From positions 2,662,501 through 2,726,500 of the forward strand of contig NZ_CP123872.1 of the NCBI RefSeq assembly GCF_031598375.1: a stretch of DNA of 64,000 nt, written 5' to 3'. Source of the stretch: Temperatibacter marinus. Its GTDB lineage: Bacteria > Pseudomonadota > Alphaproteobacteria > Sphingomonadales > Kordiimonadaceae. Below the pieces are notes generated by a model. It had not been told where the DNA came from. It was given only the letters and a program-made list of their open reading frames with translations, and made no database searches. Of the stretch, positions 21,410-23,982 are shown one piece after another. How positions within the stretch are numbered: position 1 is the first letter of the stretch; every line of letters begins with the position of its first letter. The position numbers were made by a program, and so were the translations under genes.

Positions 21410-21889
21410 ATGTCAAAACTTGAAAAAAGTAAAGATCTTATACGCGAGCTGGCTGAACTCTTAGATGCTAGCACACTCTCTGAAATCGAAGTGGAAGACG
21501 AAGGATTTCGCATCAGAGTAGCACGCGAAGTACCACAGAGTGTTAATTATGGCGTTGCCCCTGCTGCAGCGCCTCTTGCGGCACCTGCGGCACCGATTGC
21601 TGCGCCATCAGAAGCACCAGCTGCTGTTGATACAGCAGCCTCAGCAGCAAACCACCCAGGAGCCGTCACGTCCCCTATGGTTGGTACCATCTATACATCT
21701 CCTAGCCCTGATAGCGACGTGTTCGTCACTGTTGGCGATCAAGTAAAAGAAGGCGATACGTTGGTGATCATTGAAGCTATGAAGGTGATGAACCAAATTC
21801 CGGCTCCTAAATCAGGTACAGTAAAAGAGATTTTATTCTTCAATGAACAGCCAATTGAATTTGGCGAAGTTCTTTGCATCATTGAATAA
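21410..21889 (+). CDS. accB: Biotin carboxyl carrier protein of acetyl-CoA carboxylase
   Basis: A 159-residue carrier subunit. The N-terminal helical region (1-45) is followed by a mobile alanine/proline-rich linker (about 48-80) and a biotinyl domain with the acceptor lysine K125 in EAMKVMN. It carries the biotin that AccC carboxylates for malonyl-CoA synthesis. A GGGGTAGGA ribosome site precedes the ATG. accC starts 52 bp downstream, the usual accBC operon. Confidence 0.97.
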
Positions 21890-21940: not shown

Positions 21941-23296
21941 ATGTTTAAAAAAGTCCTGATTGCGAATCGCGGCGAAATTGCTCTTCGTATCCACCGTGCT
22001 TGTAAAGAGATGGGGATCCAGACTGTTGCCGTTCACTCGACCGCTGATTCAGATGCGATGCATGTAAGAGTTGCGGATGAAGCCGTCTGTATTGGACCAA
22101 ATGCCAGTGCTGACAGTTATTTAAATGTAGCCAACATCATTGCTGCCTGTGAAGTGACTGGAGCAGATGCGGTACACCCTGGATATGGGTTCCTTTCTGA
22201 AAATGCTAATTTCGCTGAAATTTGTGGGGAGCACGGCATAAAATTTATTGGCCCCCTTCCCGAACATATCCGGATGATGGGCGATAAAATCACAGCTAAA
22301 GAGACCGTAAAGAAACTTGGCATTCCTGTAGTTCCTGGTTCTGAAGGCGGTGTTGATACAGATGAAGATGCTGTTAGAATTGGTGCAGAGATTGGCTATC
22401 CTGTCATCGTTAAAGCTACTGCTGGCGGCGGTGGTCGCGGTATGCAAATTGTACGTAACGAAAGTGACATTGTTACTGCAGTTAACACCTGTAAGACAGA
22501 GGCGAAGGCTGCTTTTGGAAATGAAGAAGTCTATATTGAAAAATTCTTAGAAAAGCCTCGCCATATCGAATTCCAAATCATTGGCGATCAATTTAAAAAT
22601 TGTATCCACCTCGGCGAAAGAGACTGTTCTCTTCAACGCCGTCACCAAAAAGTCTTAGAAGAAGCCCCTTCTCCTGTGATTGATATGGAAACACGCATGC
22701 GCGTAGGCGGTATCGTTGCTGATGCTATGGCGAACTTTGGCTATGAAGGCGCTGGTACAATTGAGTTCCTTTATGAAGACGGAGAGTTTTTCTTTATCGA
22801 GATGAACACTCGCATTCAAGTCGAGCATCCCGTTACAGAAATGATTACAGGGATCGACCTTGTAAGAGAGCAAATCCGTGTTGCTGCTGGTAAAAAGCTT
22901 CACTATAGTCAAGACATGGTAGAATTCCACGGTCATGCTATGGAATGTCGTGTGAATGCTGAAGATCCTTTCACCTTCATGCCGAGCCCTGGACAGGTCA
23001 CGCAGTATCATGCTCCAGGTGGGTTGAATGTAAGGGCAGACAGTGCTGTTTACTCAGGCTATAAAATCCCCCCATACTATGACAGTATGGTCGCAAAGCT
23101 CATTGTAAAGGGCTATACAAGAGATGGCTGTATGATGCGTCTTCTCAGGTCCCTCGAAGAATATGTTATTGATGGTATTAAAACAACAATTCCTCTGCAT
23201 ATTGAACTGTTACATAATAAAGATTTTCAATCTGGTGATTATGATATTCACTGGTTGGAAAAATTCTTGGATGCTCACAATAACCCAGATGACTAA
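21941..23296 (+). CDS. accC: Biotin carboxylase subunit of acetyl-CoA carboxylase
   Basis: A 451-residue ATP-grasp enzyme that carboxylates AccB-bound biotin using bicarbonate and ATP in the first step of fatty acid synthesis. Visible signatures are the N-terminal FKKVLIANRGEIA, the glycine-rich ATP loop ATAGGGGRGM near residue 165, the metal-binding EMNTRIQVEH near residue 290 and a biotin carboxylase C-terminal domain. AAAGGA precedes the ATG. The stop lies only 26 bp before aat, and most of that gap belongs to a long inverted repeat around the aat start. Confidence 0.97.
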   Translation: MFKKVLIANRGEIALRIHRACKEMGIQTVAVHSTADSDAMHVRVADEAVCIGPNASADSYLNVANIIAACEVTGADAVHPGYGFLSENANFAEICGEHGIKFIGPLPEHIRMMGDKITAKETVKKLGIPVVPGSEGGVDTDEDAVRIGAEIGYPVIVKATAGGGGRGMQIVRNESDIVTAVNTCKTEAKAAFGNEEVYIEKFLEKPRHIEFQIIGDQFKNCIHLGERDCSLQRRHQKVLEEAPSPVIDMETRMRVGGIVADAMANFGYEGAGTIEFLYEDGEFFFIEMNTRIQVEHPVTEMITGIDLVREQIRVAAGKKLHYSQDMVEFHGHAMECRVNAEDPFTFMPSPGQVTQYHAPGGLNVRADSAVYSGYKIPPYYDSMVAKLIVKGYTRDGCMMRLLRSLEEYVIDGIKTTIPLHIELLHNKDFQSGDYDIHWLEKFLDAHNNPDD

Positions 23297-23307
23297 ACAA
23301 ATAGAAC

Positions 23308-23356
23308 GCAAAAGGTCAAGCGATGTTAGCATCAGAAATCACGCTTGACCTTTTGC
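23308..23356 (+). repeat. 15-bp perfect inverted repeat enclosing the aat start codon
   Basis: GCAAAAGGTCAAGCG (23308-23322) is the exact reverse complement of CGCTTGACCTTTTGC (23342-23356). The 19-nt loop begins with the aat ATG. The ribosome site AAGG is inside the left arm, and the right arm encodes codons 7-12 of aat. As RNA this would be a strong hairpin across the translation start. There is no T run after it, so it is not a terminator. Confidence 0.9.
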
Positions 23357-23982
23357 TTAATGCCTATGCCTCTGGATTCTTTCCCATGTCTGATGACAGA
23401 GAAGATGAAGCGGTCTTTTGGGTAGATCCAGAAGAGCGCGGTATTTTTCCGTTGGAGCAATTTCATCTTTCTAAAAGCTTAAAAAAATTCATTCGTAAAT
23501 CTCTCTACAAAATAACCTATAATCAATGTTTTCAAACGATTTTACAGCAGTGTGCAATGCCTGCGGCTGACAGAGAAAATACTTGGATCAGCCATGACAT
23601 TGAGGCCCTCTATTGCGAACTTCACGCTGCTGGATTTGCCCATTCAATAGAATGCTGGCATGGCGAAACTCTTGTGGGTGGACTGTATGGTGTCTGCTTG
23701 AATGGCTGTTTTTTTGGGGAGAGTATGTTTTCAAGAAAAACAAATGCAAGCAAGGTAGCCCTTGCCTATCTGGTTGCGCGTCTCAAAGTCGGGGGTTTTT
23801 CACTCTTGGATAGTCAGTTTCAAACAGAGCATTTAAAATCTATGGGGTGTATTGAAGTGGCCCGTGCCGACTATAAGATGATCTTAAACAATGCCCTGCA
23901 AAATACCCAAGCTGACTTTTACTTGTTAGACGATGACACGCCTGCAGAAACTATTTTGCAGTTGATTACCCAGATATCATAA
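23323..23982 (+). CDS. aat: Leucyl/phenylalanyl-tRNA--protein transferase
   Basis: This 219-residue cytoplasmic enzyme transfers Leu or Phe from tRNA to proteins with N-terminal Arg or Lys, marking them for ClpAP via ClpS. Family signatures are LLLNAYASGFFPM near the start, NTWISHDIEALY, HSIECW, the long motif around GGLYGVCLNGCFFGESMFS, and SLLDSQFQTEHL. The ATG at 23323 fits the normal family N-terminus, so it is probably correct despite its position in a hairpin. It follows accC at 26 bp and overlaps the convergent DUF2155 gene by 64 bp. Confidence 0.95.
   Translation: MLASEITLDLLLNAYASGFFPMSDDREDEAVFWVDPEERGIFPLEQFHLSKSLKKFIRKSLYKITYNQCFQTILQQCAMPAADRENTWISHDIEALYCELHAAGFAHSIECWHGETLVGGLYGVCLNGCFFGESMFSRKTNASKVALAYLVARLKVGGFSLLDSQFQTEHLKSMGCIEVARADYKMILNNALQNTQADFYLLDDDTPAETILQLITQIS

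Follow-up and report, generated by a model that had tools for sequence, protein, structure and literature searches.

A predicted mRNA hairpin over the aat start, kept by paired changes across one alphaproteobacterial family

Results

Gene context of aat in Temperatibacter marinus

The window analysed here is a 64,000-nucleotide stretch of the Temperatibacter marinus chromosome (NZ_CP123872.1, positions 2,662,501 to 2,726,500), and all coordinates below are positions within it. The gene aat is preceded by a type II dehydroquinase gene, accB and accC. The gap between accC and aat ranges from 5 to 63 nt in the family and is 26 nt here. Given that ClpS was also found in this genome, an N-degron pathway is plausible. 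The Aat protein itself occupies a long branch (1.25), and Leu replaces the Pro that is otherwise almost invariant in its ITP motif. At its other end, aat (+ strand) is convergent with a DUF2155 gene (- strand), and the two 3' ends overlap by 64 nt (23919-23982). The features considered are:

21410..21889, + strand: accB, biotin carboxyl carrier protein, upstream of aat in the same presumed operon
21941..23296, + strand: accC, biotin carboxylase, directly upstream of aat and co-oriented with it in 30 of the 30 family genomes
23297..23307, + strand: 11-nt spacer separating the stem from the accC stop codon
23308..23322, + strand: 5' (left) arm of the hairpin, GCAAAAGGTCAAGCG, directly 5' of the aat ATG; half of an inverted repeat with family-wide pairing
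23313..23316, + strand: best Shine-Dalgarno (SD)-like match, AGGU (-10 to -7), within the 5' arm
23323..23982, + strand: aat, leucyl/phenylalanyl-tRNA--protein transferase, 219 aa; PF03588 (Leu_Phe_trans), E = 8e-67
23323..23341, + strand: 19-nt loop region, its first letters being the aat start codon
23342..23356, + strand: 3' (right) arm of the hairpin, CGCTTGACCTTTTGC, in aat codons 7-12, overlapping the ITP-motif codons (I-T-L here)

A perfect stem encloses the aat start

The aat start is enclosed by a perfect 15-bp stem (23308-23322 paired with 23342-23356) whose arms are exact reverse complements. A first-pass annotation of this DNA had described such a hairpin, with a 19-nt spacer beginning at the aat ATG and a 3' arm made of codons 7-12, and both descriptions proved correct, the 3' arm being nucleotides 20-34 of the aat reading frame. 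It had also proposed that the ribosome site is buried and that the stem straddles the true initiation site. In agreement with this, the start region lies inside the stem with the SD-like match in the 5' arm, and the ATG at 23323 is the sole upstream or early in-frame start candidate. Only the spacing between accC stop and stem had to be amended, from 12 to 11 nt.

When the junction RNA was folded in context, as had been proposed, the hairpin was the dominant local structure; its folding energy in isolation is -24.6 kcal/mol. Opening the region from -15 to +15 of aat would cost 25.4 kcal/mol, compared with 14.2 for the next highest and a median of 7.5 among 46 open reading frames of the window. 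We also ranked start-straddling helices in 464 kb of the genome (the window plus twenty 20-kb stretches). Among the 405 genes sampled, whose starts were picked by a simple script so that single starts may be wrong, aat came first; the longest perfect helices were 15 bp at aat, then 10 and then 9.

Among inverted repeats of the window, searched with at most 60 nt between copies, the one at the aat start heads the list. A dispersed repeat or mobile element was rejected, given that the arm sequence occurs without mismatch nowhere in the genome besides its own two arms. An intrinsic terminator was rejected as well: there is no U-run, the sequence after the stem being TTAATGCC, and no terminator-like match at the site. 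No local promoter was found in the stem region, and Rfam covariance models gave 0 matches in the window at gathering score. A riboswitch-like exchange with the end of accC or with downstream aat sequence found no significant conserved partner (accC end against left arm, z = -1.6).

The pairing is maintained across the family and absent from the other groups tested

The comparison set was the GTDB family of the window genome, represented by 30 genomes with 27 non-redundant aat starts, and its Aat proteins are about 51-61% identical to that of the window. Of the 27 non-redundant members, 21 have a helix between the leader and the ITP-motif codons that is at least as strong as -14 kcal/mol, and the other six have no strong helix. 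The hairpins of relatives are built from largely different letters, for example ATTAGGGGTTATG/CATAACCCCTAAT, TTCAGGCGTA/TACGCCTGAA and TCCGGAGTGA/TCACTCCGGA, with further arm pairs TGGCGTTATG/CATAACGCCA, GGGGAGACA/TGTCTCCCC and TTTCAGGGGTAA/TTACCCCTGAAA. Outside the window genome the perfect stems are 8-13 bp long, and length and stability differ widely among relatives.

A search of related genomes for compensatory changes in the arms had been suggested, and we carried it out by scoring the strongest uninterrupted helix, with Watson-Crick and G-U pairs allowed, that the leader can form with 33 nt surrounding the ITP codons. As a control, arms were swapped between species, with the best register taken for real and swapped arms alike. 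Real arms paired far better than swapped ones, with a family mean of -19.46 versus -12.24 kcal/mol over the 27 genomes (z = -11.0, 0 of 5000 permutations). Because partners were exchanged among relatives, this control is conservative. With a looser duplex score the family z was -8.3, versus -2.1 for the outside set. Opening costs at the start region point the same way, with family medians of 19.7 kcal/mol for aat versus 9.8 for accC.

No pairing signal was seen at the accC starts of the same family loci (z = -0.6), and seven shifted windows in these loci gave z values of -2.2 to +1.5, nothing of similar size. Other groups of the order also lacked a signal (f2, z = -0.4; f4, -1.2; f5, +0.8; f6, +1.3; f8, -0.8), with f2, f4 and f6 being small (4-6 genomes) and f3 and f7 too small for testing. 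The same holds for a class-level sample (z = +0.5) and a GTDB-named sample (z = +0.7). A class-wide aat element was thus rejected, the signal being absent from the groups tested outside the family; among those groups, the element predicted here is restricted to one GTDB family. Two of the 23 genomes of f8 (L184 and L185) have a strong SD, AAGGAGG, that pairs with CTCCTCC Leu codons of aat, a coding sequence resembling the anti-SD.

Paired changes at coding positions

Within the stem, the protein constrains codon positions 1 and 2, but third positions differ between species, with matching changes in the left arm. Third-base pairs at the Pro codon include all four Watson-Crick types (AT 8, CG 3, TA 2, GC 2, GU 1, UG 1), and those at the Thr codon (GC 14, CG 3, AT 2) and the Ile/Val codon (TA 9, GC 5, AT 4) are also diverse. 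In total, 58 of 60 wobble cells pair, versus 26.9 with swapped arms; this count is biased towards pairing, given that the helix was chosen for pairing, and the swapped-arm helix test is the unbiased one. Parsimony on an Aat tree built without the stem columns gave 32 pair-state changes at six columns (4, 4, 5, 9, 6 and 4), which are rough counts on a weakly resolved tree.

Amino acid replacements are matched too. In the window genome, the change from Pro to Leu (CTT) in the ITP motif is accompanied by an A in the left arm, so that a G-C pair is now A-T; in L017, a change from Thr to Ser (TCC) is likewise accompanied by a left-arm A, and a T-A pair is now A-T. For the subset of ten sequences in the same register, covariation was 0.254 versus 0.121 after shuffling (0 of 500), all slid registers were worse, and RNAalifold recovered the same stem. 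Codon use is also skewed, with ATA at the Ile codon facing the start region in 11 of 20 cases versus 53 of 264 other Ile codons in family aat genes (p = 0.001).

The hairpin is anchored to the aat start

The right arm keeps to the aat codons in nearly all species. The end of the left arm falls anywhere from about 15 nt upstream of the ATG to 4 nt inside aat across the family (for L029 the upstream ATG was taken by hand for this position), and in many relatives this arm covers the start codon itself. Among 24 strong hairpins, 16 have their best SD match inside the left arm. For the ten sequences in the same register an SD role is doubtful, given that only about 2 nt separate their G-run from the ATG.

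The stem begins -4 to 48 nt after the accC stop (median 11 nt), with 13 of 24 cases at 12 nt or less. Since this distance varies and the right arm is fixed on aat codons, the element belongs to the aat start rather than to the accC stop. Where the hairpin is present in the family the accC-aat gap is 15-63 nt, and the two family loci with a 5-nt gap are both without it. Gaps of -4 or -1 nt, the classic arrangement for tight coupling, occur in 7 of 23 genomes of f8 (e.g., L213 and L214).

Discussion

Judging from sequence comparison, the accC-aat hairpin is very probably a selected mRNA structure that sequesters the aat start. It belongs to a known general class, the start-sequestering intercistronic hairpins, as judged by a predicted stable stem over the aat ribosome site or start together with compensatory change. 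Neither a prior description of an accC-aat hairpin nor a paper on the control of aat expression was found in the literature searched, the coverage of which was incomplete.

Coupled gene pairs in which a structure sequesters the ribosome site include phage f1 VII/IX, MS2 coat-lysis and E. coli rpmI-rplT, and RNA structure over the ribosome site often silences coupled downstream genes (review PMC12548453). Like these pairs, accC-aat has an intercistronic structure over the downstream start and a close, co-oriented upstream gene. Unlike them, it has its pairing arm in the early codons of the downstream gene itself, and the structure is kept family-wide by synonymous and non-synonymous paired changes. 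Given that the pairing arm consists of aat's own codons, elongation through accC would by itself leave the left arm uncovered in most species. The hairpin also resembles RNA thermometers and SD-sequestering leader hairpins in concealing the start region in a stem. However, it is too stable to melt at growth temperature, is intercistronic and has no common thermometer sequence.

A stem this strong over a start should block free 30S binding. The 5' arm covers the sequence immediately before the aat start (the ribosome site and, in many relatives, the start codon), the 3' arm is made of the first conserved aat codons (I/V-T-P-x-L), and the folded hairpin would keep free 30S subunits from initiating on aat. 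In the scenario that we suspect, aat would be translated at a low level, chiefly by ribosomes that have just left accC and that melt the stem or scan through it, and Aat output would track accC translation. We lean, by a little, towards this reading, in which the hairpin represses free initiation and aat is translated mainly by accC-derived ribosomes. Ribosomes arriving from accC, one of several openers suggested in the first-pass annotation, are our best guess for what opens the stem, although whether accC coupling is indeed the opener is an even call.

The geometry constrains how such opening could occur. In the window genome, the stem starts 11 nt past the accC stop, approximately where the leading edge of a terminating ribosome would lie. 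Across the family, the spread of -4 to 48 nt makes it unlikely that direct melting by accC ribosomes is general; a terminating ribosome would fall short of the stem in about half of the species and would only marginally reach it here. In the window genome, opening the stem would thus have to fall to ribosomes that scan or re-initiate, not to elongating ones. The few short-gap loci at hand suggest that the hairpin stands in for tight spacing, keeping aat from independent initiation.

The main rival to opening by accC ribosomes is that the hairpin sets a low, constant dose of Aat relative to AccB and AccC from one mRNA, through slow spontaneous opening and with no dedicated opener. The high opening cost of the aat start region, the varying distance from the accC stop and the lack of a significant conserved alternative partner for a switch all fit such an arrangement. 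However, a start that costs about 20-25 kcal/mol to open seems too tightly closed to initiate usefully on its own, and the absence of the stem from accC-aat loci with 5-nt gaps (n = 2) also speaks against it, so we assign it a modest probability. It is unlikely that the stem instead acts behind the accC stop to shield aat from re-initiating accC ribosomes, as a ribosome termination structure (Chemla et al. 2020, PMC7518266). Such structures share with the aat hairpin a stable fold shortly past an operon stop codon, consistent with the median distance of 11 nt, and are reported to be enriched at intergenic gaps of at least 25 nt (PMC7518266). The aat hairpin differs in being anchored to the aat start codons across the whole range of stop distances, and loci with gaps of 15-19 nt, a range in which termination structures are reportedly depleted (PMC7518266), carry strong stems too.

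A strong, conserved lock hints at a key, and the 8-35 nt loop between the arms could offer a site to an sRNA, protein or helicase that opens the hairpin under some condition. We consider this distinctly unlikely, given that arms and loops share little sequence beyond codon constraint, with no obvious binding motif and no Rfam match. Opening by temperature or by RNase III, both put forward in the first-pass annotation, is very improbable. The covered ribosome site and the 15 perfect pairs of the window genome would fit such readings, but in silico the stem remains closed up to 65 C, where the 5' arm still has an unpaired probability of 0.02, and relatives' stems vary widely in length and stability. 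Many of those stems, at 8-13 perfect bp in most relatives, are too short for RNase III. Scarcely credible is that the repeat is a DNA palindrome (an operator), or that an SD-like leader pairs by chance with C-rich ITP codons resembling the 16S anti-SD. The ATCACC codons do look like the anti-SD tail, yet permuted arms retain both the SD-like leader and the C-rich codons and pair much worse, and starts of aat that have ITP/LTP codons in groups beyond the family give no signal. As for an operator, G-U versus A-C mismatches at the stem edges do not tell which strand is selected, but arm sequence and spacing are too variable for one DNA-binding protein.

Returning to control by accC ribosomes, a link of N-degron tagging to growth or lipid synthesis through the hairpin, as the first-pass annotation envisaged, is possible. 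A stronger version, which we regard as rather doubtful, is that the hairpin is a dedicated cis-RNA gate of one alphaproteobacterial family, with Aat as a translational read-out of biotin carboxylase (fatty-acid) synthesis and aat's conserved first codons as the lock. The hairpin provides a clean case of what appears to be a family-selected mRNA structure whose 3' arm lies within codons conserved for the protein. The variation in stem length and stop distance among relatives forms a natural series for studying how ribosomes open start-blocking structures. It also suggests a connection, open to testing, between translation of accC and how much of the N-degron enzyme Aat is supplied.
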